From a bacterium (GTDB lineage: Bacteria > Patescibacteriota > Saccharimonadia > CAILAD01 > BJGX01), in the NCBI GenBank assembly GCA_029778565.1, contig JAKOQC010000249.1, forward strand, positions 1-45,610: a stretch of DNA of 45,610 nucleotides. Reading direction: 5' to 3'. Under the pieces are notes generated by a model. It saw nothing but the letters and a program-made list of their open reading frames with translations, did not search any database and had not been told where the DNA came from. Shown in pieces: positions 16,982 to 45,610 of the stretch. The position numbers and the translations under genes were made by a program. The stretch's first letter is position 1; each line of letters starts with the position of its first letter.

Positions 16982-16984
16982 CAT

Positions 16985-18055: not shown

Positions 18056-18062
18056 TACAAGA

Positions 18063-32397: not shown

Positions 32398-32628
32398 ATG
32401 TTCATTATAGAAAGCGAAGGTCATTGCAGGGTAGCTGACTACCCAGGTATACAGAAGGAGGTATGCTGTGGTTGTGAGCAATATTTTGTGCTTGAAGATA
32501 GCTTTGAGCCACTAGTAGACCGTATACGCAAGCGCAGCTATCTTATTCACACCAATTGCTTCGATCTACTCGAAGCCAAACTCAAAGGAGAAGGTAATGG
32601 AAATCTTCCGCTCTGGGCTCAATCTTGA
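32398..32628 (+). CDS. Small Cys-rich protein, zinc-finger-like
   Basis: A 76-aa protein of no recognised family. It has CCGC near residue 24 and HTNC near residue 57, a CxxC...HxxC spacing that suggests a zinc-binding treble clef. ATG 32398 follows SD AAAGGAG. Its 3' end overlaps the oxygenase gene by 32 nt, so the two are co-translated and probably functionally linked. Confidence 0.65.
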   Translation: MFIIESEGHCRVADYPGIQKEVCCGCEQYFVLEDSFEPLVDRIRKRSYLIHTNCFDLLEAKLKGEGNGNLPLWAQS

Positions 32629-33235
32629 TTATCTACTTAGCGATGTGGTGACGTTTGGCGGTACATTTGTACCAGAGGCATTCACTAGAGAATATCTAAG
32701 CTACCTTAATGAAGAGCTCGATAGTCTTCACTACGGCCAGTATCAGTCTGGTGATGACGCGAAGGTGTATGAGCGCCATAAAGATTTTCGGGCACGGGTG
32801 TATGATACTCAGGCATATATTCCGCGTCTAACTGAGCTTGTGGAATATATTGGCTGGCAAATACGTGCAGCCAGTGTTAGTAAGGCTAATAATGAGCTCT
32901 TTTACCCAGATGACGTGAACGTCTGGCGTTATAGCGATGAGAGTAGCGGTATAGGTAGACATCGCGACTATAGCCACGACCTGTACTTAATAGTAGGTAT
33001 TACTACTAAGGGTTGTTGTACCCTCGAATTCTATGGAGACAATCCTGATAACCCATCTCCAAAGATCTGGCAGGCAGGACCAGGCAGCCTGATGTTACTG
33101 CGTGGCCTGGGGTTTTGCGAGCACGATGACTGACCATGGCACGCGGTAAACCCGCCATTGCATGGTGAGCGAGTATCAATTATTATTCGCCAAGACATTC
33201 GCGATAGTCAAGCAGAAAGTACAAAAGAGTACTAA
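32597..33235 (+). pseudogene. 2OG-Fe(II) oxygenase-like gene with in-frame TGA
   Basis: From ATG 32597 (SD AAAGGAGAAGG) the frame encodes 178 aa up to TGA at 33131-33133. The frame then stays open, in the same phase, for 33 more codons to TAA at 33233. The first Fe-binding motif HRD (GIGRHRDYSHDLY) lies before the TGA. The distal His (PWHAV) and the co-substrate Arg with RxS (HGERVSIII) lie after it. A product ending at the TGA would lack essential residues. One C-to-T change in a CGA (Arg) codon would explain it. Either this is a recent nonsense mutation or the stop is read through. Confidence 0.75.
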
Positions 33236-33277
33236 TTTAACCTGTAAAATAGGCGAAATAGTATCTTTTGAACACTT

Positions 33278-33308
33278 AGGCTCGAGAATAAATCTCGAGC
33301 CTGTTTTT
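33278..33308 (+). terminator. Rho-independent terminator
   Basis: A perfect 10-bp stem AGGCTCGAGA / TCTCGAGCCT, loop ATAAA, followed by GTTTTT. It ends the zinc-finger/oxygenase transcript. Confidence 0.9.
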
Positions 33309-33329
33309 GTATACGAAAGTTATACAAAT

Positions 33330-33353
33330 AAAAAACCCAAGCGTGTGCTTGGG
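33330..33353 (-). terminator. Rho-independent terminator, minus strand
   Basis: CCCAAGC / GCTTGGG with GTGT loop, and on the minus strand a T run follows. It lies 10 nt after the stop of the minus-strand hypothetical gene. Confidence 0.85.
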
Positions 33354-33363
33354 CGAGGAACAA

Positions 33364-33750
33364 TTATGTACTTGAAGGTAAAGGATTCATGTTTTCATCA
33401 GCATTGTGAAGAGTACGGTTAACAACCCTAATCACGTATTGGAACGCTTCTTTCAAGTCAGGTTGCCGAAAAGCTGGCGTAAGATGATCTTGACCAGCAG
33501 TAAAATCGGATGGCTCCATCCTGTCAATTTCTTCGAGTGCTTCTCGATACTTACAAACATGATCTTGATCATCAAAATTGCAACAGCTAATATTGCCATT
33601 TGCTACTCGAACATGATCGAGTTTGCGATTGATAATCATCGGGTAATAACCATCAGGTACATCCAGCGGCAAACCTGGTTTATCTGGATTTTCGGCAAAT
33701 CCATACGTTGTAATAAATTGGCGCTGAATTTCATTGATGTATTCGAGCAT
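33364..33750 (-). CDS. Hypothetical protein
   Basis: A 128-aa soluble, acidic protein of no recognised family. A conserved-looking central part has DGYYPMIINRKLDHVRVANG and two adjacent Cys (ISCCNFDD). SD AAGGAG lies 9 nt before the ATG; promoter at 33804-33832; terminator at 33330. This complete set of signals supports a real gene. Confidence 0.75.
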   Translation of the reverse strand: MLEYINEIQRQFITTYGFAENPDKPGLPLDVPDGYYPMIINRKLDHVRVANGNISCCNFDDQDHVCKYREALEEIDRMEPSDFTAGQDHLTPAFRQPDLKEAFQYVIRVVNRTLHNADENMNPLPSST

Positions 33751-33803
33751 GATCGCTTTCTCCTTCCACGGAGTATTGCAAGGTTCAATGGCTAACCTGC
33801 TGC

Positions 33804-33832
33804 ATAATACTAGATAATGAAAAAAATGTCAA
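33804..33832 (-). promoter_or_regulatory. Promoter of the minus-strand hypothetical
   Basis: On the minus strand, TTGACA (33832-33827) and TATTAT (33809-33804) are 17 bp apart. It starts where the displaced tRNA-Asp terminator ends. Confidence 0.7.
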
Positions 33833-33856
33833 AGAAAAAACCCCACTTCTGTGGGG
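33831..33856 (-). terminator. Displaced terminator of tRNA-Asp
   Basis: On the minus strand, CCCCAC / GTGGGG (loop AGAA) is followed by six T residues. It lies only about 10 nt beyond the left attachment core. In the reconstructed empty site it would directly follow the CCA end of tRNA-Asp, so it is read as that tRNA's original terminator, now about 8.7 kb away. Confidence 0.75.
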
Positions 33857-33865
33857 TGCTTTCTA

Positions 33866-33872
33866 TGGCGGG
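33866..33872. other. attL core of the integrated element
   Basis: TGGCGGG, identical and in the same orientation to 42596-42602 at the 3' end of tRNA-Asp. The two 7-bp copies bound the element. The match is short, as expected for a serine integrase, and is supported by frame continuity and the displaced terminator. Confidence 0.75.
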
Positions 33873-33997
33873 GGCTAGTTGTTACATTGAGAACTTGTGC
33901 TAATGACTTTGAGGGTTATGAGTTTGATAATTTGTTTGACGCTATTGAAGAGCACGAGCCAAGTCTTGCCATATTACAACCAGCATCAGCTCAATAG
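33866..33997 (+). pseudogene. Detached 3' end of the serine recombinase frame
   Basis: Starting at the core with TGG CGG, the frame runs open for 43 codons to TAG at 33995-33997, 19 nt before the convergent XRE gene. The recombinase reads the same core in the same phase. In a circular form its frame would therefore continue here, giving a native acidic C-terminus (with FDAIEEHEP). In the integrated state this piece has no start codon of its own, except a possible TTG at 33887. Confidence 0.7.
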
Positions 33998-34016
33998 GCT
34001 ATAGCTCACTTGTTGA

Positions 34017-34238
34017 TTAGAGCCTTTTGAATAGGTCTACTAGCGATATATTAAGAGCCTTTGCTATCTTATGGATATTCCCAATACTCGGATTGCGTTT
34101 ACCTTGCTCAATAAACCCAATATAAGTTCTATGAACATCAATTATATCTGCTAGTTTTTCTTGCGTAATACCCGTTTTCTTACGAACTTCAGATATTCGC
34201 CGACCTAACTCTTTTAAAAATAAATCTTCAGAAGCCAT
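34017..34238 (-). CDS. XRE family transcriptional regulator
   Basis: A 73-aa protein that is almost entirely one Cro/CI-type HTH domain (LGRRISEVRKKTGITQEKLA, then TYIGFIEQGKRNPSIGNI). This is the size of a minimal Cro-like or immunity repressor. It is divergent from the membrane protein gene, whose promoter carries a palindrome in the spacer, and is probably the element's regulator. Confidence 0.9.
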   Translation of the reverse strand: MASEDLFLKELGRRISEVRKKTGITQEKLADIIDVHRTYIGFIEQGKRNPSIGNIHKIAKALNISLVDLFKRL

Positions 34239-34264
34239 ACATACAGTTTGTCGCTATTAGCCTG

Positions 34265-34293
34265 TTGCTTCTACAGACAGCTTGTAGCATAAT
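34265..34293 (+). promoter_or_regulatory. Promoter with operator-like palindrome in the spacer
   Basis: TTGCTT (34265-34270) and CATAAT (34288-34293) are 17 bp apart. The whole spacer is the palindrome CTACA-N7-TGTAG (34271-34287). A dimer bound there would block polymerase. A partly similar TACAGTTTGT lies at about 34242-34251, near the XRE start. Confidence 0.55.
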
Positions 34294-34329
34294 TATGAAT
34301 AAGAAATAACAATTTAAGGAGAAGATGTA

Positions 34330-35085
34330 ATGAAAAATGAAGAACACAAAGCTGCCCCTGCACAGCCTGAGGCAGCTCATCACCCTGTACAAGCACCTAC
34401 CAAAACAAACACCCTAGCAATTTGGGGTTTTATTCTAGCTATCTTACTGCCACTTATTGGCCTAATTTTATCAATTATTGCAATTTCACAGATTAAAAAA
34501 TCAAATGAGGGCGGCAAAGGTTTAGCCATAGCTGGCATTGTCATAGCAAGCATTTTGCTCTTTTTCCAGCTAATTATATTTGTTTCATTGGTTAATGGGG
34601 CTAAAAATATTTCAACAACGACAAGCTCAGACAAAAGCTCACAGTCATCTTCAAGCAACTCAGGTTCAAAGCCTGCTGAAGTAGCTAAAATTGGCCAAGC
34701 TGTGCGAGATGGTAAGTTTGAGTTTACTGTTACGGGCTTCAGCTGTGGTCAAACATCAGTCGGGACAAACCAATATCTAACCAAGCAAGCTCAAGGTCAG
34801 TTTTGTATGCTAAATCTTAGTATCAAGAACATTGGCGACCAAGCTCAAAGCCTATTTTCTGGCAATCAAAAACTACTTAACGGCAGCACCCAGTATTCTG
34901 CAGATGATACGGCTACTTTGTATGCTGGGCCATCAGGCTCAACTTCTACTTGGTTCAACGACATAAACCCTGGTAATAGCGTTTCAGGCACAATTGTCTT
35001 TGATGTGCCAAAGGGCGTTACCCCAACCCAGGCTGAATTGCACGATAGTGCGTTTTCAGGTGGTATAAAAGTTAACTTGCAATAA
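34330..35085 (+). CDS. Membrane protein with DUF4190 and DUF4352-like domains
   Basis: A 251-aa protein: a Pro/Ala/His-rich start, two transmembrane helices (about residues 28-52 and 68-90) with the DUF4190 pattern (GGKGLAIAGIVIA), a Ser-rich linker and a secreted beta domain. The beta domain resembles DUF4352, an Ig-like fold common in surface lipoproteins (MLNLSIKNIGDQAQSLF). SD AAGGAG precedes ATG 34330. It is the likely target of the XRE repressor. Possible roles are surface exclusion or host contact, which is inference. Confidence 0.8.
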   Translation: MKNEEHKAAPAQPEAAHHPVQAPTKTNTLAIWGFILAILLPLIGLILSIIAISQIKKSNEGGKGLAIAGIVIASILLFFQLIIFVSLVNGAKNISTTTSSDKSSQSSSSNSGSKPAEVAKIGQAVRDGKFEFTVTGFSCGQTSVGTNQYLTKQAQGQFCMLNLSIKNIGDQAQSLFSGNQKLLNGSTQYSADDTATLYAGPSGSTSTWFNDINPGNSVSGTIVFDVPKGVTPTQAELHDSAFSGGIKVNLQ

Positions 35086-35089
35086 GTTA

Positions 35090-36442
35090 CTATTTGCCAG
35101 GCATTGAGCCGTCTTTTGGCGGCTCTTTTGCTTTTTGTTGTTTAAGATATTCAGCCATCTTCTTGCGACCCTCTTCTGTTCGACCAAGAGTAATCTCTTT
35201 CATCCCGTTTGACCATAACTCAACTACACCCTCACGCATCAACTTATTTATTTCTTGTGTTGTTGGCTTTGCTTCAGGCGTTGTTTGAAGTATTAGAGCC
35301 TTAGTATCTGCTACCGCTTTTTTGTTTTTGTAATGCAGATGTACTAACTCGCCGATAAACTCGTCTTCTGGGATTGAAGGTATCGGTGGTTTCTCTAAGT
35401 ATTTAACTAGGAACGACTTATAACCATACCTACTTCTAATAACTTTAGTGACCTGAGCTAGGTCGCCAGCTACAACTACAAAGTCGTTCACTTCTATATC
35501 TGGTTTAGTCTTCTTGGTGTGTAGGGCCACAGGATAATCATTTTTTTTCACAAGGTCAGCACACATCTTGAGAAAACCATTTGTGTTGTGTATCCGCATC
35601 AAGTCTTTAGTGGCGTTAACAACGTGCAGTGATAGTATGCCAACTCTGCTCAGATGCAAATCTAGGTCGTCTAGGCTCAGATTACGGCTACCCGCAGAGC
35701 CTCCAGGATGAAGCGACTTGCTTTGACTACCCAGCGATACGTAGTGTGTCCTTAAGACAGCCTTTTGCTGTGGCTTCATTCTTGGAAAAACCGCTTGAAA
35801 CCTAAGGTTAAGAGACCGTAGGCTACGTTGAATTTGTCCAGTTTTAGATATATTTGCGTACCAGCACTTATTTGGGTCAAGATTTTTGGCAAGGCTGTCA
35901 GCTTGCTGTATTAAGTCAGCTTCTTGATATGCGTAGTTTGCATTTTCAGAGCCGTAATACTCCTTAATATCTGCCTGTGTACGTTGCAGCGACTTAAGCT
36001 CGTGCAGTACTAGGTAATGCTGATAATAGTCTTTGTTGTTTGCCAACCTAAACCCGACCAAATCAACCATAATCTCGGTCATCTTTCTTTGCCATAAGGC
36101 TAGCTCATCAATTCTAGATTGCAATACATTATCAGCAATTCGCTGCTGCTCGTCATTCAGCCCGTCAGGTATACCTTTAACACGACTTTCAACTATAAAC
36201 TCCGAGGCTTGCATCATACTCATACCAGTCTTTTCCACTTCGTTCAAAACGCCAAATAAGTAGTAGCCTTTTGGGTCGTGAGAATTTGGCCCGTGCATAA
36301 GATGGTATGAATTATTATCCCATCTTAGCTTTTTTCTTAGTTGAGCCGCACCTTTAAGGGGTATATCTAAAAATGCATCGTGACGCTTTTTCTCATCACT
36401 TTTACTAGGCTCGACTACTGGTGGTTTTGGTTTGTCGGTCAT
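35090..36442 (-). CDS. Hypothetical 450-aa protein, last gene of the cargo operon
   Basis: No family recognised. It is soluble, Lys-rich at both ends (the C-terminal helix is QQKAKEPPKDGS-like) and mostly helical in the middle. There is a beta-rich segment around residues 315-375 (DFVVVAGDLAQVTKVIRSRY) that could be a small barrel. It is the largest cargo gene, 21 nt after the DUF5680 gene, and therefore a candidate effector. Confidence 0.75.
   Translation of the reverse strand: MTDKPKPPVVEPSKSDEKKRHDAFLDIPLKGAAQLRKKLRWDNNSYHLMHGPNSHDPKGYYLFGVLNEVEKTGMSMMQASEFIVESRVKGIPDGLNDEQQRIADNVLQSRIDELALWQRKMTEIMVDLVGFRLANNKDYYQHYLVLHELKSLQRTQADIKEYYGSENANYAYQEADLIQQADSLAKNLDPNKCWYANISKTGQIQRSLRSLNLRFQAVFPRMKPQQKAVLRTHYVSLGSQSKSLHPGGSAGSRNLSLDDLDLHLSRVGILSLHVVNATKDLMRIHNTNGFLKMCADLVKKNDYPVALHTKKTKPDIEVNDFVVVAGDLAQVTKVIRSRYGYKSFLVKYLEKPPIPSIPEDEFIGELVHLHYKNKKAVADTKALILQTTPEAKPTTQEINKLMREGVVELWSNGMKEITLGRTEEGRKKMAEYLKQQKAKEPPKDGSMPGK
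35106..35136 (+). terminator. Terminator of the DUF4190/DUF4352 gene
   Basis: GAGCCG / CGGCTC with an 8-nt loop followed by T-rich sequence. It lies inside the 3' end of the convergent minus-strand gene. Confidence 0.6.
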
Positions 36443-36463
36443 ACATAACCGAGTTACTTTTGC

Positions 36464-36928
36464 TTATTCATCGACTACACCGCCAAAATAAAGCCCCTTG
36501 TATATCTCATCGTTGTTTTTAAGGATAATCTCTTCACCTACAAAGTTACTCATATCACCATTCCAGCTATTACGATATACTAGATTATCCTCAACATATT
36601 CCTTTGGCCCTCTGTAGGGATGTTGCTCAGGAGCTTTTAGTAAGGCTTTACGCAAGAATGCATAAACATCGTTTGAGGTTAACTTGGTATTATGAACCCA
36701 GCCACGGTATTGCATTGCCCATATAGGCTTATCATCTTTATAAACTACTTCTTGGCCAGCGTAAGGGTGACCGCCGTAGAAGTAGTCACAGAAATGCCAG
36801 TTGTCCTTGGTGTGATTAATAATATGGCCGCCGTCATCTGCTTTTTCAATCTTTACGGTTGGATTGCCGTATCCAGAATTATTAGCTTCAAATAGGTACT
36901 TTCTTACGCCCTCAATCTCTGCACTCAT
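36464..36928 (-). CDS. DUF5680 domain protein
   Basis: A 154-aa protein matching the DUF5680 pattern: an N-terminal helix, then WHFCDYFYGGHPYAGQEVVY, PIWAMQYRGWV and a PYRGPKEYV motif. The domain often occurs fused to XRE-type HTH domains, but stands alone here. Its biochemical role is unknown. The ATG overlaps the peptidase stop by 4 nt. Confidence 0.8.
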   Translation of the reverse strand: MSAEIEGVRKYLFEANNSGYGNPTVKIEKADDGGHIINHTKDNWHFCDYFYGGHPYAGQEVVYKDDKPIWAMQYRGWVHNTKLTSNDVYAFLRKALLKAPEQHPYRGPKEYVEDNLVYRNSWNGDMSNFVGEEIILKNNDEIYKGLYFGGVVDE

Positions 36929-37590
36929 ACTATTTTCCCACCTTTGATTTTTATTGGCTCGCTACCAATTGTGTATTGTTTTTCAGCTTCAACAACCACT
37001 GCAGTGTCGTCGTGCAGACCATAAATGAGACCATCATAGTTTTTGGCTACTTCTAGTAGTACTTCTTTTCGGTTGTTTGGGAAAAACTTACTACCTAGGT
37101 GTGGTTTGATAGCCAAGTCAACTAAGCTGAGGTATTTTGATACGCCATAATCGTTTTCTTCGCCGTAAATCTTTTGATAAGCCTCGGTTGAAACACGGTT
37201 ACATATAACCATAGAACCCGCACTACTACCGACGTATACTTTACTTTCCAAAAGTTTAGGAAGCAATTTATCAAAACCTGTCTTCTTGAAGATGCTCATA
37301 AGGTAATCGGTTTGACCGCCTACAACGAAGATTACATCTGCGAGTTTAATTCGTTTCTTCACGGTGTCTAGGTCAAGTGCTAGCAGGTTCACAAGCTCCA
37401 TATTGCCCTTGAAGTTCTTTTTTATGCGGTTTAGGTCATCTAACACCCAGCCGTGGTCGCCGTGCTCTACGGCGTATGCTTCGTTAATGACAGCAAAGTT
37501 AATTTTGTCCTGTGGTTTTCCAACCAAGTGAACACACTTCTCAATTATTGCAGGTGTATAAAAACCAGCAGAGGCTAAAATGAGCTTCAT
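36925..37590 (-). CDS. Peptidase S51 (dipeptidase E-like)
   Basis: A 221-aa protein, the usual size of PepE. It has the VGGQTDYLM loop and the nucleophile motif GSSAGSMV (Ser at about residue 123), with an expected His and Glu later (PHLGSKFF, HDDTAVVVE). The family cleaves Asp-X dipeptides or cyanophycin-like substrates. In this cargo operon it may be a metabolic gene or part of a defence module; neither is shown. It is coupled by 4-nt overlaps on both sides. Confidence 0.9.
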   Translation of the reverse strand: MKLILASAGFYTPAIIEKCVHLVGKPQDKINFAVINEAYAVEHGDHGWVLDDLNRIKKNFKGNMELVNLLALDLDTVKKRIKLADVIFVVGGQTDYLMSIFKKTGFDKLLPKLLESKVYVGSSAGSMVICNRVSTEAYQKIYGEENDYGVSKYLSLVDLAIKPHLGSKFFPNNRKEVLLEVAKNYDGLIYGLHDDTAVVVEAEKQYTIGSEPIKIKGGKIV

Positions 37591-37868
37591 TCTTGCTCCT
37601 CATTTAGTAGTGATATGATTTGATAACCATATTTTTCAATCTCTTCTTTGGTCCAAAAACTACCGTCCTTTGTTCTCCCGACGTATCCAACCTTACGACG
37701 TAGCTTGCGGCCAATGAGTTGCTTTGTATCAGTATCAATTTCGTTTAGCACTAAAATATCACCAGGCTGACAATCCCAGTCTGCAAGTCGTAGCTCATAT
37801 GTCTTCTCGCCACTGATTATTTTATTAAAGTATTCAGTAAGTATTTTTTTCTCAATTATGTTACTCAT
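37587..37868 (-). CDS. ASCH/DUF3850-like RNA-binding domain protein
   Basis: A 93-aa single-domain protein with the ASCH/PUA-like pattern: KILTEYFNKIISGEKTYELR, DWDCQPGDILVLNE and a final hydrophobic strand. ASCH domains bind RNA or act as small hydrolases; DUF3850 members are common in phages and plasmids. It overlaps the HTH gene before it and the peptidase gene after it by 4 nt each. Confidence 0.85.
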   Translation of the reverse strand: MSNIIEKKILTEYFNKIISGEKTYELRLADWDCQPGDILVLNEIDTDTKQLIGRKLRRKVGYVGRTKDGSFWTKEEIEKYGYQIISLLNEEQE

Positions 37869-38056
37869 TTTGCCTCTAAAAACTTCATTAAATCTTCACG
37901 CTTATAGCGTCGGACACCACGTACACCAATGCGGCTAGCCTTAAGGATGCCTTTTTTATCCCAGTTACGCAAAGTGTTTGGGTGCACCTGCAGTAGCTCG
38001 CAGGCTTGTTTTAGTGTTAAGTATTCTGGTAAATCTTTTTGCGACATATTCCTCAC
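37865..38056 (-). CDS. MerR-like HTH protein (excisionase/HTH_17 type)
   Basis: A 63-aa protein consisting of a winged HTH (YLTLKQACELLQVHPNTLRN, then GVRRYKREDLMKFLEA). Such stand-alone domains are either excisionases (recombination directionality factors) or small repressors. It begins with GTG at 38056, or ATG at 38047. A TATAAT box lies about 21 nt upstream on the minus strand. It is the first gene of the five-gene operon. Confidence 0.85.
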   Translation of the reverse strand: MRNMSQKDLPEYLTLKQACELLQVHPNTLRNWDKKGILKASRIGVRGVRRYKREDLMKFLEAK

Positions 38057-38129
38057 TTTTGCTCACATTACTATACAATTATACAAGAGAGTGATTGCCT
38101 GCGATAGAGCAGGTTTTAGAAAAGATGTG

Positions 38130-39290
38130 ATGAAAAAAGACGACAAACAATCTGGTAATCGCAAAAAGCCGCAGAAAAAGTCTGCTGGCAAGCCTTTGAG
38201 TGCTAAGAAAAAGCCAGCACCAAAATACTTTCTGGACCTTGAGGCTATTGGCAAAGAAAGCGAAGCCGAGAGCGGTATTGTGTTGCCAAAAAATCGTGGT
38301 TTAACCCTGGGCCAATGGCAGGAATTGGCAAAAAAAGACCCCTCGCTTCTTTCGTCACAAGAGGCTCGACAGCTAGCAGAAACAAATAAAATGGCTGCCG
38401 ATTTTGCCATACAGCTTTCTGAAAGATACGACTTTGCCAGCCTCTTTAAGACAACACCTGTCTTGAAAATGGTTGAGGATATTGGAAAGGCCGCAAGTGC
38501 AACAAAAGCTTTGCATATGAACCTAGCCATACCTGCCCAGCAACTTGTTAACTTTCAGCGTAGTATGACCATTACAAGCAGCGTAATTAGCCAGGTAATG
38601 ATTGATGCTGCCAATATGGCGAATATCACACATAGCCTGTTTGCAGGCTTTGAAAGTTGGCATACACAATTTATAAAATCTCTAAGTATAGATATTGCCT
38701 CGTTAGGCAGCACTATGGCCCGTATCACGGCCGTTGAGACGATAGATTTTGATGTATTGGAAATTGGCGAAAAAGACGGCCACATTGTTGTCAAAAGTGA
38801 AACAAGCCAGGTGCAGAGGATTGATGACTATGAGCTTGTTAGTAAGGCTAATCTCGACTTACTATTTACTGAATTTCGTGCTACACGCTCTGAACTTGCT
38901 GAGATAAAAGATTTAATCAATAAGGGTTTGCAACCTGGTATTTCTAAAATAGCATTTGCTGATGCAAAGTTTAAAAGAGAAGCCTCCAATCTGATAATCA
39001 ATGGCTTTGATGTGGTTGTTGGCCGTAATTCTAAGCAAGCACAGTTTTGTGAATTGTTTTTCAAATCAGAGGCAAATTTTAGCAAGAAGTGGGATATACA
39101 AGATTTTGTAAACGCAGCATTTGGTCTTCAAATCGGGCTAGATGGCAACGAAGAACAGATGTTAAGCCTTGTAAAAGGCTATGTTCACGCACTTAATCAG
39201 AAAATAGTTGCATCTACCAAGGGCAAATTCAAAGATTTTTTTGTACTTGTTAAACTAGAAGTTTATATTAACCCCGAATACACTTCCTAA
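38130..39290 (+). CDS. Hypothetical 386-aa element protein
   Basis: No family recognised. A strongly basic Lys/Pro N-terminal ~30 residues (KKDDKQSGNRKKPQKK) is followed by a long, mostly helical part without membrane segments or catalytic motifs. Near the C-terminus, an FKSEANFSKKWDIQDFVNAA-like stretch has a globular look. ATG 38130 follows a possible GTG at 38127, and no good SD is seen. The basic start suggests nucleic-acid contact, which is inference. Confidence 0.7.
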   Translation: MKKDDKQSGNRKKPQKKSAGKPLSAKKKPAPKYFLDLEAIGKESEAESGIVLPKNRGLTLGQWQELAKKDPSLLSSQEARQLAETNKMAADFAIQLSERYDFASLFKTTPVLKMVEDIGKAASATKALHMNLAIPAQQLVNFQRSMTITSSVISQVMIDAANMANITHSLFAGFESWHTQFIKSLSIDIASLGSTMARITAVETIDFDVLEIGEKDGHIVVKSETSQVQRIDDYELVSKANLDLLFTEFRATRSELAEIKDLINKGLQPGISKIAFADAKFKREASNLIINGFDVVVGRNSKQAQFCELFFKSEANFSKKWDIQDFVNAAFGLQIGLDGNEEQMLSLVKGYVHALNQKIVASTKGKFKDFFVLVKLEVYINPEYTS

Positions 39291-39314
39291 TCTGTAAAAG
39301 TCATTATTAAAAAA

Positions 39315-39337
39315 GTTTAAACCGTTTAAACAACGGT
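39315..39337. repeat. Nested palindromes before the Rep operon
   Basis: GTTTAAAC occurs twice, 39315-39322 and 39324-39331, one base apart, each a perfect palindrome. Overlapping them, ACCGTT (39321-39326) pairs with AACGGT (39332-39337). This could be an operator or part of a replication origin. Confidence 0.55.
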
Positions 39338-39346
39338 GTTGTTTTA

Positions 39347-39532
39347 ATGGTTACTATGCATCAAGAAAGTAGCCAGCAACCAAATAAGAACGTCGCTTTG
39401 CAAGATTTTATTGCCGAGCTTGGTCGAGACGAAGAAGCTAAAGCCAACATTGTTGGCTATCTTGATGTACTGATTGAAATGGACCTTGAATTAAAGGAAC
39501 AAGAAAGGATTGATGAAAATGGAAACACCTAA
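39347..39532 (+). CDS. Small acidic element protein
   Basis: A 61-aa protein, acidic and helical (FIAELGRDEEAKANIVGYLD), of no recognised family. ATG 39347 has no clear SD; ATG 39356 is possible. It overlaps the next small ORF by 14 nt and opens the Rep operon. Confidence 0.5.
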   Translation: MVTMHQESSQQPNKNVALQDFIAELGRDEEAKANIVGYLDVLIEMDLELKEQERIDENGNT

Positions 39533-39707
39533 AGAAATAGCAGACTATTTTGAGCGTCTGTGCAGTAAGTGTTTGCTTGTTGCTATAAACGAGTATCTTA
39601 GTCGGGCAAGCCACCAGGAGCTACGTGCTTTAAAAGCTCGTATCTATTTACTACTTGAAGCACCTTGCAAAACTGAAGAGTGCCAAGAGGATTGTAATGA
39701 AGATTAG
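39519..39707 (+). CDS. Small helical element protein
   Basis: A 62-aa protein: a helical start METPKEIADYFERLCSKC and a Cys-rich acidic end (APCKTEECQEDC). ATG 39519 is chosen because SD AAAGGA lies 9 nt before it. Its stop overlaps the SpoVG-like start by 11 nt. No family recognised. Confidence 0.55.
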   Translation: METPKEIADYFERLCSKCLLVAINEYLSRASHQELRALKARIYLLLEAPCKTEECQEDCNED

Positions 39708-40041
39708 CGAAGTAAATGTAGTGCCTATTAAACCGACTAACGGTTTGGTGGCTTTTGCGAGCGTGGTAGTTGATGAAAGCCTGTATCTTGGCTCAATTGG
39801 CATATACACCCGACCAAATGGCTCGTTTCGTATAACCTATCCAACTAAAAAAGTTGGCGTAAGAGAAATGAACCTCTACCATCCGATAAAACAGGATGTT
39901 GGCAAGCAAATTGAGCAAGTAGTATTAGAGAAATATCAGCAAATTTTTGAAAGAAGTGATGACAATGATAGACACAATAAAGCTAGTGGTAAAAATGGAC
40001 AGGGCACTCTCTTCAAGAGCGAACTTCCAGCCGACGCTTAA
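39697..40041 (+). CDS. SpoVG family protein
   Basis: A 114-aa protein with the SpoVG pattern: the start MKISEVNVVPIKPTNGLVAF, a LYLGSIGIYTRPNGSFRITY strand pair, a PTKK patch and the helix YHPIKQDVGKQIEQVVLEKY. SpoVG proteins are site-specific DNA/RNA-binding regulators, and element-borne copies are known. SD AGAGG precedes ATG 39697. It overlaps rep by about 83 nt. A role in regulating replication of the element is inferred. Confidence 0.85.
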   Translation: MKISEVNVVPIKPTNGLVAFASVVVDESLYLGSIGIYTRPNGSFRITYPTKKVGVREMNLYHPIKQDVGKQIEQVVLEKYQQIFERSDDNDRHNKASGKNGQGTLFKSELPADA

Positions 40042-41086
40042 TGCTATTAGTGAAGACTATTTTGGCTATTTCAAAGCGGTGTTAAACCCGTCAGCTATCA
40101 ATAAGAAGCTAGGTAAATACCAGCCTCGTTTGACCTATACCCAAAGGCCGAGAGGCTATCAAAGAGCCGCCTATGAGCTTGTTATTGAACTTTCCCTGCC
40201 AAAGATAGCTTATGGTAATAACTTTGACGAGCTTACTGATACTGATTTTCCTAGGCTTGTTAAACAACTGCGAGATACACTTAAAGAAATGAATATCTGG
40301 TTATTCACACACCAGCTAGAAGAAACCGAAGTGCGAGCCGTACACTACAGCAAAAACTTTGTTTTTACCGACTACACCTCGTGCTCGTCTGTTTTGCAAA
40401 TGCTTCGCACTGCAGATATTAGTAAAACGTATGATGTGCAAAGCACCGACTTTAGAAATGGCGGCTATGTTTTACACATACATTCTAACTCACTAGATAT
40501 TGCAATTTACGATAAGCTGGCTGACCTACAGCAGTCCAAAACTAGCGAAAAGCGAGCTATTGAAAAAGATAACTATGTACAGCTTGATATGCTTGACCTG
40601 ATTGCTCCGAAAAAGCCAGTATCTGTAATGCGGTATGAAGTTAGGCTAAACGGCAAGAAAAAGACAAGAGATGCTCTAGCAGCGGTTGGCTTTACTGAGC
40701 CACTTACGCTCAAAAGTGTTTACTCAGCAGAATTGGCTAAAAAGCTACTGCAAAACCACTGGCAAAACTTCTTTGACAATTTACCCAAGCTGGCACTAGA
40801 TACCGACGACCCAGATAAGGTGCTGGCTAATATCCTACGTTCTAAGGAGCTAACAGGGCCGACACAGGCCGCTGCACGGCTTGGTATGGCACTTCTACTC
40901 AAAGACAGTGAAGACCGCTACGTCAGGACACTATTTGAAAATCGTTTTGGCAAGCACGCCTGGGCACGGCTCAAGCCGCTTACTAAGCAACCTGCCAAGG
41001 TGCAATACAAGACGATTTTAAACATCAACAAGATGTTAGAACTGTTTGAACCAACAAAAATAGAAGACATAAAAGACGCAATATAG
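39959..41086 (+). CDS. Replication initiation protein (filamentous-phage G2P/Phage_CRI-like)
   Basis: A 375-aa protein that begins MTMIDTIKL, the start typical of G2P-type Rep proteins. It also has a conserved middle (NGGYVLHIHSNSLDIAIYDK) and VMRYEVRLNGKKK, comparable to the region VRFEARIKTR in phage f1 gpII. These are rolling-circle initiators of filamentous phages and related plasmids. The catalytic Tyr cannot be fixed by eye. The start could also be ATG 39965. It overlaps the SpoVG-like gene in another frame. Confidence 0.72.
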   Translation: MTMIDTIKLVVKMDRALSSRANFQPTLNAISEDYFGYFKAVLNPSAINKKLGKYQPRLTYTQRPRGYQRAAYELVIELSLPKIAYGNNFDELTDTDFPRLVKQLRDTLKEMNIWLFTHQLEETEVRAVHYSKNFVFTDYTSCSSVLQMLRTADISKTYDVQSTDFRNGGYVLHIHSNSLDIAIYDKLADLQQSKTSEKRAIEKDNYVQLDMLDLIAPKKPVSVMRYEVRLNGKKKTRDALAAVGFTEPLTLKSVYSAELAKKLLQNHWQNFFDNLPKLALDTDDPDKVLANILRSKELTGPTQAAARLGMALLLKDSEDRYVRTLFENRFGKHAWARLKPLTKQPAKVQYKTILNINKMLELFEPTKIEDIKDAI

Positions 41087-41137
41087 ATTGTTACTAAATG
41101 TTACTTAATGTTATATACTAATAGAGAAAGGACAATA

Positions 41138-42637
41138 ATGAAAATTAAAGCATTTTTAATCGCCAGAGTGTCGGATATTGACCAACGACAAGCCTTACCA
41201 GCTCAGATAAGGAAGCTCACAACCTATGCAGAGCAGCAAGGTTATGACTACGAGCTGTTTGAGTTTGATGAAACCGCCTATAAAGATACACGCAAAGAGT
41301 TTGGTAAAATTGTAAACGCAATACAAGCCTATCCAAAAGAATGCATTGTGGTTTTCGATAAAATAGACCGCTTGAGCCGAGATATGCATCAAGATGAAGT
41401 TAAAGCACTTAATAAGCTGCGTGATGCTGGCAAAATAGAGATACATTTTCCATCGGATAACTTATTTGTTCATAAAAATTCACCAGCTACCGACCTATTT
41501 CGTCTCGGCATTGGCGTTGTGTTAGCAAAATACTACTCTGATAGTATCAGTGACAACGTAAAGCGTCGTTTTGAACAGAAGCTAGCCGACAAAGAATGGC
41601 CAGGTAAAGCACCCATAGGCTATCTGAACCAGCGTATTAGCGAAAAAGAAACTACTATCGTTAAAGACCCTATACGCTCGCCATACATCATCAAGGCTTT
41701 CCAGATGCGGGCATTAGGTAAGCCATATCGAGCTATTGCTGCCGAGCTTCGCGAAGAGGGTTTAAAAAATAACACACCCAAACAAAATCCTATTTGCCAA
41801 CGTCACATTGAGCAAATACTGAAAAACCCGTTTTATCACGGCGTTATGCGGTATAGTGGCAAGCTTTACCCACACAAGTACGAGCCACTAATTAGTCGTA
41901 AAATGTTCAATAAGGTACAAGAAATGAACGACCAGCGGACCAATAATAAGACCAAGACACAAAATGCCGACTATACCTTTAATGGACTGCTTAAGTGTGG
42001 CAGTTGTGGTTGTAGTGTTTCTTCTTACACTGCCAAAGGCAATGTTTATATGCATTGTTCAAAGGGTAAAGGGCCTTGCAAGCAGCCGCATACCAAAGAA
42101 AGCGAGCTTGTGCCCCAAATGGCTGAGTTACTTGGTAGGCTAGAGATGAATGAAGACATTGTAAACTTTGTAATTGGCGAGCTACGTAAGCATCACGATG
42201 ACCAACAGGTTTATTATGCCAACTCTATTGAGCAAACACGTGCTGAATACGACAAAATACAGAAAAAGCTACGGGTTTTGTACGATGATAGGCTAGATGG
42301 GCGTATTACTCTCAATGAATACGACGAATATGTTAAAGACCTAAAAGCTAGGCAAGAGCAATTGGATGAGCAGCTCGTAAGCCTTACGCATAACGACAAA
42401 AGCTTTATGTTAACCAGCTCATACCTGTTAGAGATAGCCACAAAAGCCCCTAAGCTATTCCAAAGTTCTAAAGCGGCTCTAAAATCAAAGCTATTACACT
42501 TTGTACTTTCTAACCTTGAATTACACGATAAAAAGCTCCATTTCAATCTAAAAACACCCTTTGATGTAATCGCAGAGTGTTCTCAAAATGCTGATTGGCG
42601 GGCCCGACCGGATTTGAACCGGCGATCTCCTCCGTGA
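41138..42637 (+). CDS. Large serine recombinase, C-terminus altered by integration
   Basis: A 499-aa integrase with the resolvase catalytic domain (ARVS, nucleophile Ser12; DRLSRDMHQDE), a recombinase domain (about 160-265), a zinc ribbon (CGSCGCS near 286) and a coiled coil (about 360-420). ATG 41138 follows SD AGAAAGGA. After residue 486 the frame enters the attachment core and antisense tRNA-Asp, ending RARPDLNRRSPP. This tail is a by-product of the integration site. In the circular form the frame continues for 43 codons now at 33866-33997 (529 aa in total). Confidence 0.92.
   Translation: MKIKAFLIARVSDIDQRQALPAQIRKLTTYAEQQGYDYELFEFDETAYKDTRKEFGKIVNAIQAYPKECIVVFDKIDRLSRDMHQDEVKALNKLRDAGKIEIHFPSDNLFVHKNSPATDLFRLGIGVVLAKYYSDSISDNVKRRFEQKLADKEWPGKAPIGYLNQRISEKETTIVKDPIRSPYIIKAFQMRALGKPYRAIAAELREEGLKNNTPKQNPICQRHIEQILKNPFYHGVMRYSGKLYPHKYEPLISRKMFNKVQEMNDQRTNNKTKTQNADYTFNGLLKCGSCGCSVSSYTAKGNVYMHCSKGKGPCKQPHTKESELVPQMAELLGRLEMNEDIVNFVIGELRKHHDDQQVYYANSIEQTRAEYDKIQKKLRVLYDDRLDGRITLNEYDEYVKDLKARQEQLDEQLVSLTHNDKSFMLTSSYLLEIATKAPKLFQSSKAALKSKLLHFVLSNLELHDKKLHFNLKTPFDVIAECSQNADWRARPDLNRRSPP
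42596..42602. other. attR core in the tRNA-Asp 3' end
   Basis: TGGCGGG, the reverse complement of the last seven bases of the tRNA gene (three acceptor bases, discriminator and CCA). It is the second copy of the core at 33866-33872. Confidence 0.75.
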
Positions 42638-42672
42638 CAGGGAGGCGTGTTAGACCACTTCACTACGAGCCC
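42596..42672 (-). tRNA. tRNA-Asp (anticodon GTC)
   Basis: A cloverleaf on the minus strand: acceptor GGGCTCG/CGGGCCC, anticodon stem CCTCC/GGAGG with loop CTGTCAC (GTC) and TpsiC loop TTCAAAT. Discriminator G and CCA are encoded. It is intact despite the inserted element on its 3' side, because the core regenerates the 3' end. Its own terminator now lies at 33831-33856. Confidence 0.96.
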
Positions 42673-42701
42673 GTATTGAAATGAGTATTTTTAACCTGAT
42701 T

Positions 42702-42730
42702 ATTCTAACAGAATTAGTATATTCGTGCAA
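42702..42730 (-). promoter_or_regulatory. tRNA-Asp promoter
   Basis: On the minus strand, TTGCAC (42730-42725) and TAGAAT (42707-42702) are 17 bp apart, ending 29 nt before the tRNA. Confidence 0.6.
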
Positions 42731-42762
42731 TATCTATAAAAATAAAAACATAACAATTTTCG

Positions 42763-42791
42763 TTGACAATGGGGTAACAATTTGATACTAT
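42763..42791 (+). promoter_or_regulatory. Promoter of the 79-aa hypothetical gene
   Basis: TTGACA (42763-42768) and TACTAT (42786-42791) are 17 bp apart. A leader of about 85 nt carries SD AAGGAG near 42863. No stable hairpin is obvious in the leader. Confidence 0.6.
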
Positions 42792-42881
42792 AGGTGGGTT
42801 AAAGAGCTTTGTACCAATACCATTTGGAGGGTGCAAGGTTTTTTATTTTGTTTGTGAAATTAAGGAGTTAAAAATAAAATT

Positions 42882-43121
42882 ATGCAAGTTTTAAGTTATT
42901 ATCAGGTTACTCGTCCACGAAAAGTAAAAATTCGCGTGGTCGCTGCGCACGAGCATGTACCGTACTTAGACGGTAGTAATGTTATTGATGTACGAGCAAT
43001 TGCTCAGGGCAGTAAGCCGCGTTTTGGTTCTTCATTCTTCTTAAGTCCAAACGAACGTCAGATTACCGAGTATGAGGCCTGGCAAAAACTTAGTCGCCGC
43101 CTCAGCAAACGACTTGTCTAG
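42882..43121 (+). CDS. Small basic hypothetical protein
   Basis: A 79-aa protein of no recognised family: a beta-rich first half (RPRKVKIRVVAAHEHVPYLD) and a basic C-terminal helix (WQKLSRRLSKRLV). A consensus promoter, a long leader and an SD support a real, well-expressed gene. A nucleic-acid-binding role would fit the charge but is not shown. Confidence 0.65.
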   Translation: MQVLSYYQVTRPRKVKIRVVAAHEHVPYLDGSNVIDVRAIAQGSKPRFGSSFFLSPNERQITEYEAWQKLSRRLSKRLV

Positions 43122-43160
43122 GCAGCATATAACAGATAGAGAAGTAAATAAGTGTGATAT

Positions 43161-43197
43161 AATACAAGGTACTTTTAAAAGAAAAGTACCTTGTATT
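43161..43197. repeat. 16-bp perfect hairpin
   Basis: AATACAAGGTACTTTT (43161-43176) and its exact reverse complement (43182-43197) with loop AAAAG. A TATAAT sequence (43158-43163) runs into the left arm. It may terminate the 79-aa gene (distance about 40 nt) or be the 5' stem of a transcript leading to the tRNAs. Confidence 0.75.
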
Positions 43198-43234
43198 TAT
43201 TGGTATGTTAATAATCTGTTAGAGAGTTGAACAG

Positions 43235-43308
43235 GCGAGTGTGGTTCAATGGCAGAACGTGACCTTCCCAAGGTTGAGACGTGGGTTCGATTCCCATCAT
43301 TCGCTCCA
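43235..43308 (+). tRNA. tRNA-Gly (anticodon CCC)
   Basis: Acceptor GCGAGTG/CATTCGC, D arm GTTC/GAAC, anticodon stem TGACC/GGTTG with loop TTCCCAA (CCC, reads GGG) and TpsiC loop TTCGATT. Discriminator T and CCA are encoded. Confidence 0.94.
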
Positions 43309-43336
43309 AACCTTTTTACGCTGAGTTATATGTTTT

Positions 43337-43412
43337 GCCGATGTAGCTCAGTTGGTAGAGCGGCGCTTTCGTAAAGCGTAGGTCAGCGGTTCGATCCCGC
43401 TCATCGGCTCCA
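43337..43412 (+). tRNA. tRNA-Thr (anticodon CGT)
   Basis: Acceptor GCCGATG/CATCGGC, D arm GCTC/GAGC, anticodon stem GCGCT/AGCGT with loop TTCGTAA (CGT, reads ACG) and TpsiC loop TTCGATC. CCA is encoded. It lies 28 nt after tRNA-Gly and is probably cotranscribed with it. Confidence 0.94.
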
Positions 43413-43426
43413 CGTCGGTTTATTAC

Positions 43427-43471
43427 TTAAGTTTTCGCAAAACATCTGCGATATTTTGCTTCAACCATCAT
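43427..43471 (-). CDS. Possible 14-aa peptide with strong SD
   Basis: On the minus strand AAAGGAGG (43486-43479) lies 7 nt before ATG 43471, which opens MMVEAKYRRCFAKT and a TAA stop. No promoter or downstream minus-strand gene is seen. The same bases read on the plus strand are CCTCCTTT, like the 3' end of 16S rRNA. It is probably fortuitous. Confidence 0.15.
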   Translation of the reverse strand: MMVEAKYRRCFAKT

Positions 43472-43487
43472 AAATAAACCTCCTTTA

Positions 43488-43513
43488 CCAACAAAAATAT
43501 GCATTTTTGTTGG
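43488..43513. repeat. 11-bp hairpin upstream of the membrane protein gene
   Basis: CCAACAAAAAT (43488-43498) and ATTTTTGTTGG (43503-43513), loop ATGC. It ends 25 nt before ATG 43539 and could be a leader stem or a terminator for the tRNA transcript. Confidence 0.6.
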
Positions 43514-43538
43514 GGCAGGAAGTAAAAGAATTATATAT

Positions 43539-43922
43539 ATGAATTTTTTTAGAAAACTCAATAAAGAACTAAAAGACCAGAAGCTGTTTCGAGATAACTG
43601 GTTTTTGGTGTTACTTTTTCTTTTAGTAAGTGGAATAGTATTTCTTATTGTATGGTCAGTTACTCATATCCATGCTACCGATATTGACGTACCAATACGT
43701 TTTACCAGTCTTACAAACTTTGATGAACTAGGTAAGTGGTATCAATTATACGAAATACCGGTTATTGCTATTCTTGTGAGCGTTATTAATGTATTCTTTG
43801 CAGCATTACTGCATAAAAAGAACCGAATAATCTCAACATTTCTTATAATTACAGCATTAATGGTGGTGGTCTTGGCAATAGCCATACTCCTTGGGTTTAC
43901 CGCAATAAAATATGGCAGCTAA
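43539..43922 (+). CDS. Small three-helix membrane protein
   Basis: A 127-aa protein of no recognised family, with a charged amphipathic start and three transmembrane helices (about residues 22-42, 72-92 and 102-122). The 3' end overlaps the glycosyltransferase start by 11 nt, so it probably works with that enzyme in surface polysaccharide synthesis (inference). Confidence 0.75.
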   Translation: MNFFRKLNKELKDQKLFRDNWFLVLLFLLVSGIVFLIVWSVTHIHATDIDVPIRFTSLTNFDELGKWYQLYEIPVIAILVSVINVFFAALLHKKNRIISTFLIITALMVVVLAIAILLGFTAIKYGS

Positions 43923-45576
43923 CAAACCAGTTACAATCGAGCCTGTTACTTTTGCCGATAAGCGTTGGTTTTACCGTTTACTCGAAATTATCCCCGGCGC
44001 CCTTACTTGGTCTATTTTGCTTGGGCCGATAATTTTAAGCCTTGTATTTCCAATTGCCGTGGCTTACTTTATTATCGCCTTCGATCTTTTATGGCTTATG
44101 AAATCTATTCGTATGAGTTTTGCGCTGATTTTGGGCTATAGACGCACAAAAGAAGCAGAGAATAGAGACTGGAACACTCGTTTGCAACAGCTGAGTAATA
44201 TTCCAGCCAGTCTCGAGCAGGCTCAGGCCGAGCTAAAGCGGGCCCCAAATTCTCAGATAGGTCGCCTCGAAATTGACTTTTTAAGATCAGAAGTAGAGCG
44301 GCTGCAACTACTTGCTAGTAATGAAAACGTTATTATGCAGCCCAAAGACATTTATCATCTGGTAATCATGCCAATGTATAACGAGCCAATAGAGATTGTA
44401 GAGCCTGCGCTGCAGGCCATTCTCGACTCGGAGTTTTCGATGAAGAAAGTATATTTTGTATTGGCCTACGAAGAACGGGGTGGCGCAGAGACTAAGGCTA
44501 CTGCTCAACTTCTCGAAGAAAAATATGCAGACAAATTCTACAAATATTCTACAATAGAGCATCCCGACGGTATTGCCGGAGAAATAAAAGGCAAAGGGCC
44601 AAATATTACCCATGCCGCCCGAATTGTTCTAAAAGATATTGAAAAATCAGGAATAGATCCTGATAATGTTGTAGTTACTACAATAGATTGTGATAACAAA
44701 GTACATAAAAAATACTTTAGCTGCCTTACATATCACTATGCTATTAATCCTAATAGGCGTCATACATCGTTTCAGCCTTTAGCGCTGTACTTTAATAACA
44801 TCTGGGATGTTCCTGCCCCTATGCGCGTACTTGCTGTTGGTAACTCCTTTTGGGTAATGATAGAGAGCGTACGCAAGCAGCGACTGCGCAACTTTGCCTC
44901 ACACGCACAAGGACTCTCGGCGCTAATAGATACTGACTTCTGGTCGCTAACGAGTCCGGTAGAAGACGGTCACCAATTTTACCGCAGCTACTTTACCTTT
45001 AATGGTGACTATATGGTAGAACCCCTATTTGTACCTATTTATCAAGATGCAGTGTTGGCCAGTAATTACCATCGTACCTTTATTGCCCAGTTTAAACAGC
45101 TTCAGCGTTGGGCATATGGTATCTCGGACTTTCCATTTGTGGTAAAAAATTCTATAAAAAATAAAAATATTCCCCTGGGTGATAAACTCATTCAGATAGG
45201 TCGTTTGCTCGAAGGACACTTAAGTTGGTCTACTGCGCCACTTATTTTAACTTTTGCTGCCTGGGCTCCCTTGTATCTGAATGCTGGTTTTTCTCAAAAT
45301 GTGATTGCTCACCAGTTACCGGTAATTGCCTCACGTATTCTTACTCTAGCCACAATTGGTCTGTTTACCACGATATGGATTAGTTTTATTATGATACCGA
45401 AACGGCCAAGTCATTATCCTAAATGGAAGATGATATTTATGGTTTTACAGTGGGTATTGGTACCAATTACCGCAATTGTGTTTGGTGCTTTTGCAGCCAT
45501 TAACGCCCAGACCCGTTTGATGCTCGGCAAATACCTCGGCTTTTATGTAACAGAAAAGGCGGTTAAAAAGCGATGA
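43912..45576 (+). CDS. Membrane glycosyltransferase, family 2
   Basis: A 554-aa processive-type GT2. Two N-terminal membrane segments (about residues 28-75) precede the catalytic domain (VIMPMYNEPIEIVEPALQAI, DxD in TTIDCDNKV, later TDFW and the QxxRW-like QLQRWAYG). Three C-terminal membrane helices follow. It resembles cellulose-synthase-type enzymes that make and export a polysaccharide; the sugar is unknown. Its TGA overlaps the ATG of the next gene. Confidence 0.9.
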   Translation: MAANKPVTIEPVTFADKRWFYRLLEIIPGALTWSILLGPIILSLVFPIAVAYFIIAFDLLWLMKSIRMSFALILGYRRTKEAENRDWNTRLQQLSNIPASLEQAQAELKRAPNSQIGRLEIDFLRSEVERLQLLASNENVIMQPKDIYHLVIMPMYNEPIEIVEPALQAILDSEFSMKKVYFVLAYEERGGAETKATAQLLEEKYADKFYKYSTIEHPDGIAGEIKGKGPNITHAARIVLKDIEKSGIDPDNVVVTTIDCDNKVHKKYFSCLTYHYAINPNRRHTSFQPLALYFNNIWDVPAPMRVLAVGNSFWVMIESVRKQRLRNFASHAQGLSALIDTDFWSLTSPVEDGHQFYRSYFTFNGDYMVEPLFVPIYQDAVLASNYHRTFIAQFKQLQRWAYGISDFPFVVKNSIKNKNIPLGDKLIQIGRLLEGHLSWSTAPLILTFAAWAPLYLNAGFSQNVIAHQLPVIASRILTLATIGLFTTIWISFIMIPKRPSHYPKWKMIFMVLQWVLVPITAIVFGAFAAINAQTRLMLGKYLGFYVTEKAVKKR

Positions 45577-45610
45577 TCTATTTTGTTGGGTTTATTGTAA
45601 GCCTCATTCT
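45573..45610 (+). CDS. Partial gene at window edge, membrane protein start
   Basis: ATG 45573 overlaps the glycosyltransferase stop by 4 nt and opens a hydrophobic sequence (MIYFVGFIVSLI) that runs off the window. It is probably the next gene of the same operon. Confidence 0.5.
   Translation, partial: MIYFVGFIVSLI

Follow-up and report, generated by a model that had tools for sequence, protein, structure and literature searches.

A tRNA-anchored element of Saccharimonadia with a large serine integrase gene that appears to be divided by integration

The window analyzed here is a 45,610-nucleotide stretch of DNA from a Saccharimonadia genome bin, comprising the first 45,610 bases of the 121,963-base contig C542. 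Toward its right end lies a putative mobile element that encodes, among other genes, a SpoVG-like protein, a candidate replication initiator (Rep) and a large serine recombinase that is the presumed integrase (Int, encoded by int). The int reading frame runs into a tRNA-Asp gene, and what appears to be its native 3' end is found at the opposite end of the element.

An insertion in the 3' end of tRNA-Asp

Sequence comparison places the element at 33866-42602 (8.7 kb), inserted in the 3' end of the tRNA-Asp gene. This span was adopted because a copy of TGGCGGG at 33866 marks the left end and the right boundary of homology falls at the attR core. The two junctions comprise the following features:

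33866..33872, + strand: attL core TGGCGGG, left end of the element, identical to the tRNA-Asp 3' end at 42596-42602
33866..33997, + strand: native tail of the int gene (3' end; 43 codons plus stop), in frame across the core and parted from int by integration
41138..42595, + strand: body of int, large serine recombinase, codons 1-486 (PF00239, PF07508, phrog_95)
42534..42595, - strand: 3' end of int doubling as a terminator-like hairpin and T-run for the tRNA transcript (RNA fold z=-3.1)
42596..42602, + strand: attR core TGGCGGG, at the limit of homology to the empty site
42596..42637, + strand: substitute 3' end of int, in which antisense tRNA-Asp is read as WRARPDLNRRSPP (reading frame)
42596..42672, - strand: tRNA-Asp(gtc), the integration target (ARAGORN)

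The int reading frame has no stop codon before the tRNA gene and overlaps it, taking as codon 487 the TGG (Trp) of the tRNA 3' end, which is the complement of the tRNA 3' CCA. An empty site is provided by a genome of the same genus that lacks the element (G001) and aligns to 42595-45595 (79%) and 32563-33333 (77%) with nothing between. The flanking genes at 31060-32127 and 43912-45576 lie near each other in relatives, and the synteny of tRNA-Asp and a glycosyltransferase is kept in nine fetched relatives; tRNA-Asp is present in all nine syntenic regions, on the opposite strand in two of them. Directly left of the attL core is a terminator-like chromosomal hairpin, which likewise stands left of the tRNA in the empty-site genome. 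No homologue of the gene at 33364-33750 is detectable in that genome. A search for att repeats using exact 13-mers returned no match for the tRNA end within the window; the core is only 7 bp.

The insertion at tRNA-Asp and the empty site in a same-genus genome agree with the initial annotation of this DNA, which had proposed an integrating element. The span given there, 39347-42602, is correct at its end, which is that of the attR core (though the int frame runs on to 42637), but not at its start, as the element begins at 33866. The tRNA site, the left half of the element and the split integrase gene were all overlooked.

The divided integrase gene and its relatives

The initial identification of a large serine recombinase is upheld by matches above cut-off to PF00239 (2.3e-15) and PF07508 (3.1e-15) and by a match to the phrog_95 integrase family (1.7e-69), with PF13408 (zinc ribbon) below cut-off at 3.5e-4. 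The native tail at the left end of the element is 51-53% identical to the left-end tails of the related loci L033/L106 and L105 (tblastn 4.7e-9, 1.1e-6). An in-register tail was found in 23 of the 24 loci examined; the remaining locus, L111, was set aside, since the tail there is located to the right of int and is part of a different element (L111 had been among the 13 sequences of a first codon-position count and in the tail hidden Markov model (HMM), and was left out of the selection analysis below). The 23 split elements, a set selected on the presence of a tail, sit at tRNA-Asp, Asn, Gly, Trp and Gln genes and measure 3.8-21.1 kb (median 9.5 kb). The core common to their two ends is 6-8 bp long and always has TGG at its start, and many tails of elements at tRNA-Asn, Gly, Trp and Gln share the related motif W-x-x-L/I-V-D-x-L/F-R/Q-T. 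A hairpin with a T-run on the tRNA strand at the 3' end of int also occurs in several relatives, though not in every one of the 23 elements that were folded. Given a 43-codon native end 8.7 kb away and the same in-register split in 23 elements, attP appears to lie inside int, so that insertion would exchange the C-terminus of the integrase.

In a set unselected for tails, 23 loci have a tRNA where int ends, and TGG stands in the int frame in 20 of them. The tRNA call at the int end of L040 is misplaced, and its TGG is in frame. At L133 and L209, int ends before the core and the junction looks decayed.

A second set of loci was obtained by searching 392 genomes of the class with the joined 529-residue integrase, in which the junction Trp is residue 487. 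Matches were present in 236 genomes. Among the first 53 matches listed, 52 stop at residue 479-493, which is at the tRNA, and one (genome G308) reaches residue 502. Nineteen places were fetched, from which L181 (on the contig of L105) and L187 (on the contig of L117) were removed to leave 17 loci; 14 of these have a tRNA at the int end, and the TGG is in frame in all 14. The tail HMM, built on the earlier tails only, gave at E<=1 a match starting at TGG left of int in 11 of the 17 loci, all on the + strand, while on the - strand of the same loci nothing passed this threshold. The HMM had no match in L180, L182, L188, L190, L191 and L197; L190 is only 4.4 kb long, and in L180 the tail is joined to int.

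Genome G308 has two elements in tandem (L215, G308:C28:20001-40000, positions 3741-19290). The int of the first element (E1) is uninterrupted and ends in a native tail supplied by the second element, whose own int (E2) is split at tRNA-Asn.

Rates of codon change point to protein-level selection on the tails in three of four groups. For codons 12-35, the ratio of nonsynonymous to synonymous change (pN/pS) is 0.36 in the tRNA-Gly group (12 tails, one of them at tRNA-Trp), 0.40 in the window group (n=3) and 0.29 in a third group (n=3), compared with 0.87-1.85 in shifted frames of those three groups. Overall change is lower in codons 3-11, which would be expected of codons that serve as the P' arm of attP too. 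The tail appears to be a DNA site first and a protein segment after, both readings holding in part.

At L198 (G164:C6:118701-138700, reversed; positions 8957-15205), an integron-like array adjoins a related serine integrase at tRNA-Trp. It contains nine sites of the form TGGCAG(C/G)CC(C/T)T(A/C)GT(G/A)GA... around eight cassettes of 0.5-1.2 kb, which lie left of the integrase and mostly have one main open reading frame on the - strand. An att-like pattern derived from sites like these occurs at 50 places in 37 of the 392 genomes and its reversed form at none, a count that measures specificity and is not an independent discovery because the pattern was drawn from genomes in the same set. The window element contains a single such site. 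Several att-like sites are also found in G095:C2 and G332.

On the Legionella adelaidensis plasmid NZ_LR134433 (L146, NZ_LR134433.1 240461-265906), the frame of a related serine integrase continues into tRNA-Asn; at a tandem remnant there, the int 3' end is followed without interruption by WLPLVSILRTQ. A serine recombinase on a Neochlamydia plasmid (L147) lies at tRNA-Tyr, its frame passing the tRNA 3' TGG as Trp. Two gut contigs labeled as phage carry serine recombinases at tRNA-Glu (L148) and tRNA-Leu (L149), with TGG read as Trp in L149 and not in L148. The phage records MT836653 and MT837677 were considered as free circular copies and rejected, since they look like chromosomal contigs, one integrase being at tRNA-Glu and the other at tRNA-Leu. 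Scanning IMG/VR with the integrase alignment yielded six loci, and at the three inspected (L209-L211) no TGG tail was present at the integrase end. The serine integrase of the phage contig L210 (IMGVR_UViG_3300049856_000071) ends in ...PLLDEYRTLLAA, which resembles the tail motif.

Rep, the conserved gene order and cargo

Besides int, the element has the following genes:

34017..34238, - strand: HTH_3 regulator, repressor or restriction-modification control-protein-like (PF01381 3.8e-17; phrog_8; PADLOC Control_protein)
34330..35085, + strand: cargo, DUF4190-DUF4352 membrane protein (PF11611 1.7e-26, PF13828; phrog_806)
35090..36442, - strand: cargo, 450-aa protein of unknown type (no family above cut-off)
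36464..36928, - strand: cargo, DUF5680 protein (PF18931 1.8e-31)
36925..37590, - strand: cargo, peptidase family S51 (PF03575 2.8e-24)
37587..37868, - strand: cargo, DUF3850/ASCH domain protein (PF12961 1.9e-15)
37865..38056, - strand: MerR/HTH_17 protein, candidate excisionase or recombination directionality factor (PF12728 2.3e-14; phrog_66 excisionase 3.6e-10)
38127..39290, + strand: 387-aa core-module protein of unknown type (homologues in 5 other elements; no family above cut-off)
39347..39532, + strand: small protein 1 (homologues in 12 other loci, E<=1e-3)
39519..39707, + strand: small protein 2 (homologues in 4 other loci)
39700..40041, + strand: SpoVG-like protein (PF04026; homologues in 23 other loci)
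39959..41086 (or from ATG 39965), + strand: Rep, candidate rolling-circle initiator with a predicted Rep_trans fold (VIA-align match, invariant columns)

The five genes on which the initial annotation was built, namely two small open reading frames, SpoVG, a Rep-like frame and a large serine recombinase, are all at the places it gave and all on the + strand, and its SpoVG-like regulator matches PF04026 above cut-off (E=3.4e-10). It had also recognized no capsid, Zot-like or conjugation gene, and likewise none was detected among the window-element proteins in scans of Pfam, PHROGs and PADLOC; in the same scans, no relaxase together with a coupling protein or type IV secretion system (T4SS) was recognized. 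For the plasmid-prophage hybrid or satellite that it proposed, neither a virion gene nor a helper was recognized, which speaks directly neither for nor against that view. PADLOC returned regulator-type matches only, and no defense system, for the left cargo. Upstream of small protein 1, the doubled palindrome GTTTAAAC-C-GTTTAAAC (39315, 39324; 39315-39331), partly kept in L033 and L105, is a possible operator or origin, although its presence is not decisive.

Rep matches no family model. No match at E<=1 was obtained in Pfam or NCBIfam, the best PHROGs match (0.21) is non-significant, and a sequence search of the PDB gave two low-scoring matches only, both to unrelated proteins. The Pfam result covers Rep_trans (PF02486) and also Phage_CRI (PF05144), for which a family search of the element's own genome was empty as well. 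A structural model was built with AlphaFold on an alignment of 27 proteins (the window and 26 of 29 related loci) and has a mean pLDDT of 83.5 and a pTM of 0.79. Foldseek found no match to this model in the PDB at E<=1e-3. In VIA-align, whose ranking holds among the fold families in its list, the top three matches are solved Rep_trans initiators (4cwe Z 9.2, 4cij Z 9.2 and 4cwc Z 8.7; 205-211 aligned residues, root-mean-square deviation 5.4-6.1), followed by TATA-binding proteins (TBP) at Z 5.8 and below, and the model shows the TBP-like crescent fold of the solved Rep_trans proteins.

In PMC4797284 the Rep_trans family is described as having a TBP-like sheet and a catalytic Tyr that is followed by K at +2 and E at +5. 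Numbered from ATG 39965, Rep contains Y182-D-K184-L-A-D187, which corresponds to the Rep_trans motif III Y-x-K-x-x-D/E. Across the Rep family Y182 and K184 are invariant, and so is a strand with R-x-E-x-R (R223-x-E225-x-R227); position +5 is D or E in most rows. Rep_trans proteins have three acidic metal ligands, for which the candidates, assigned by order and not by superposition, are the conserved D3 and E225, with H127 at the middle position, which is H in most members and D in some. Rep is therefore described as Rep_trans-like by predicted fold and motif, and not as a family member by profile. The rolling-circle type initially assigned to it fits the motif and the best matches of the model, which are pT181-type Rep_trans initiators. 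The filamentous-phage type suggested at the same time was a fair lead, since filamentous-phage Reps are related to the Rep_trans fold, but membership was not borne out. Eight Foldseek matches in BFVD pass 1e-3, among them A0A345MNV4, which PMC13107129 names as a replication initiator of Inoviridae that contains a Rep_trans domain.

A protein search located relatives of Rep in 25 of 195 genomes, including the element's own, which has two copies. Gene order was compared over 29 loci (28 fetched Rep regions and the window). SpoVG, Rep and Int are adjacent and in the same order in 23 of them, and Rep and Int are adjacent in 26, so the trio picked out in the initial annotation is conserved elsewhere. 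The order appears to recur more than by chance, over fewer independent events than loci because several loci are near-duplicates (L049-L051; L036/L037). A divergent MerR/HTH_17 gene stands upstream in 17 of the 28 other Rep loci, as it does in the window. The source of nearly all named relatives of Rep is either Candidatus Saccharibacteria or metagenome-assembled genomes (MAGs) called 'bacterium'. Searches with tblastn found nothing convincing in 50,697 phage records or in plasmids; in IMG/VR they found one relative. A 5.2-kb contig of a MAG labeled Berkelbacteria (L107) carries a close Rep-Int element whose Rep identity is 54%, by transfer or misbinning.

Relatives' cargo was scanned in 10 proteins from six loci. 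Pairs of a methylase and ResIII, mostly type III restriction-modification, are present in L035, L039, L047 and L057; L054 has a C5 methylase, and one cargo protein of L036 has no family match. Damaged members also exist, with Rep in two pieces in L054 and Int in two pieces in L052. The bin of the window contains a second member of this element family, L039 (G000:C200), which is 10 kb long, lies at tRNA-Gly and has type III restriction-modification genes. The bin itself (G000, 2.25 Mb in 633 contigs) is about 2-5 times the size of family relatives (0.4-0.9 Mb) and may be mixed.

Readings of the element

The locus is likely an integrative and probably replicating element with attP in its own large serine integrase gene, such that insertion replaces the C-terminus of the enzyme. 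This reading draws on the boundaries, the empty site, the split frame, its recurrence in 23 elements, selection on the tails and one uninterrupted gene in a tandem, all as read from the DNA. In the circular form, int would read through attP into the conserved C-terminus of about 43 residues to give a long integrase, which may carry out insertion at the tRNA. Integration would then part the native end, leaving it 8.7 kb to the left, and fuse int to the antisense tRNA, giving a foreign or missing C-terminus. In the simplest model, the tail favors attP x attB recombination, and its loss on insertion would remove the drive to re-insert or alter the response to a directionality factor. The tRNA-tailed form may favor remaining in place, or excision aided by the MerR-type protein, a candidate directionality factor because of its phrog_66 excisionase match. 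The split could act in this way as a built-in integration switch. The excised circle would be copied by rolling circle through the Rep_trans-fold Rep, with SpoVG as a presumed accessory regulator.

Several observations weigh against this reading. In the three exceptions among the 23 loci unselected for tails, near-identical elements at tRNA-Gln (L049-L051), TGG is not in the int frame; some tails of distant relatives are short (10-20 aa), and a fourth tail group (n=3) has a pN/pS of 0.83, indicating weak selection. The attL of the window consists of the 7-bp core and tail homology, with about 530 bp to its left (33334-33865) unaligned with the empty-site genome. Rep lacks a match to any family model in Pfam, NCBIfam or PHROGs, and episomal replication and any directionality switch enter by inference only.

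The alternatives concern either the tail, Rep or the state of the element as a whole. The conserved left end might be only the P' arm of attP, that is, integrase-bound DNA with an incidental open frame and no longer protein of consequence. In the L198 array the first ~10 codons recur at nine sites while the sequence beyond differs, and the P' motif is recognizable as DNA in 37 of 392 genomes, with none for the reversed-pattern control. This explanation is nevertheless unlikely, as codons 12-35 are conserved as protein in Rep-bearing elements (pN/pS 0.29-0.40 in three groups), a long open reading frame is intact in G308 and the tails reach a stop codon at similar lengths. Degeneration in a decayed, immobile genomic island could also split a gene, and the broken Rep and Int genes of L054 and L052 are examples of damage; the junctions share one geometry at several types of tRNA, the tails are under purifying selection, some close relatives have the element and others lack it, and tandem arrays occur, all of which makes this highly improbable.

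For Rep, the fold does not separate an initiator from a relaxase because MOBT conjugation relaxases share it, together with motif III (PMC6499999). The element could accordingly be an integrative and mobilizable element (IME) whose Rep is a MOBT-type relaxase using a host conjugation machine, with replication secondary or absent. We regard this as rather unlikely: a coupling protein or T4SS gene was not recognized in the window element, the N-terminal helix-turn-helix described for MOBT in PMC6499999 was not found in Rep by Pfam, and the best structural matches are plasmid initiators, though the shared fold limits what that comparison can distinguish. A filamentous prophage (inovirus) or satellite with unrecognized coat genes would account for the Inoviridae Rep_trans protein among the BFVD matches. 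It is very unlikely given that no Zot-like ATPase or virion gene was found in the window element, that relatives carry restriction-modification cargo and that Rep has one relative in IMG/VR and nothing convincing among the phage records.

The proposed attP within an integrase gene resembles the archaeal 'suicidal' integrases of SSV1, pTN3 and pT26-2, in which the site likewise lies inside the integrase gene and the gene is split on integration (PMC8371274). Those enzymes are tyrosine recombinases that lose their catalytic part, whereas the recombinase here has serine domains and bacterial hosts. Its loss is confined to the C-terminal end, and the integrated form may therefore remain active. 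Self-disrupting recombinases are called exclusively archaeal in PMC8371274. One streptococcal serine element, IME_Spy2096_SNF2, also has its recombination site inside its own integrase gene; as presented in the accessible part of PMC5357655, it is a single element with snf2 and not a tRNA gene as target, and a family-wide pattern is not described. According to PMC4383910, tRNA genes are not known as targets of serine integrases, and serine integrases split at tRNAs are unmentioned in the available parts of PMC12884075, PMC4701971 and PMC13059738. No paper on such a serine-integrase family was found in the open-licence literature, which is not proof of absence. Gene-splitting integrases are otherwise described mainly for the unrelated archaeal tyrosine class, with one serine precedent found.

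Other comparisons concern parts of the system. Rep shares its predicted fold and catalytic motif with pT181-family plasmids and RepSTK1, but has no sequence-level match to them and resides on an integrating element. The Legionella element has SpoVG and a related serine recombinase in frame into tRNA-Asn, with the uninterrupted WLPLVSILRTQ at its tandem remnant, but a tyrosine integrase in place of Rep and AbiE and restriction-modification as cargo. The L198 array resembles integrons in its mostly single-gene cassettes of 0.5-1.2 kb, in one orientation between att-like repeats next to an integrase. It differs in having a serine and not a tyrosine integrase and a tRNA anchor, and it is found in relatives and not in the window, whose element has neither a tyrosine IntI nor attC-flanked cassettes.

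A broader reading is put forward tentatively. A wide family of bacterial serine integrases may read genomic state from an attP in its own gene (long in the circle, tRNA-tailed when integrated, long again in tandem) and act as a tRNA-anchored, integron-like capture system that includes a lineage with rolling-circle Rep. Such capture is suggested because each incoming element or cassette brings a fresh tail and P' arm to the same tRNA; as an equally tentative part of this reading, the captured load would be single-gene cassettes in L198 and restriction-modification in the Rep-bearing elements.

Serine integrases split at tRNA genes recur in many genomes of bacteria. If the C-terminus is changed by insertion, these elements would be a natural experiment on serine-integrase directionality, that is, on one-way integration without a helper, and one gene would yield two isoforms about 40 residues apart, set by the state of the DNA. 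Split integrases may explain 'recombinase family' proteins in databases that have tRNA-coded tail ends. Genetic tools are few in Saccharibacteria, and the element would give this group a mobile vehicle that carries a replication gene of its own.

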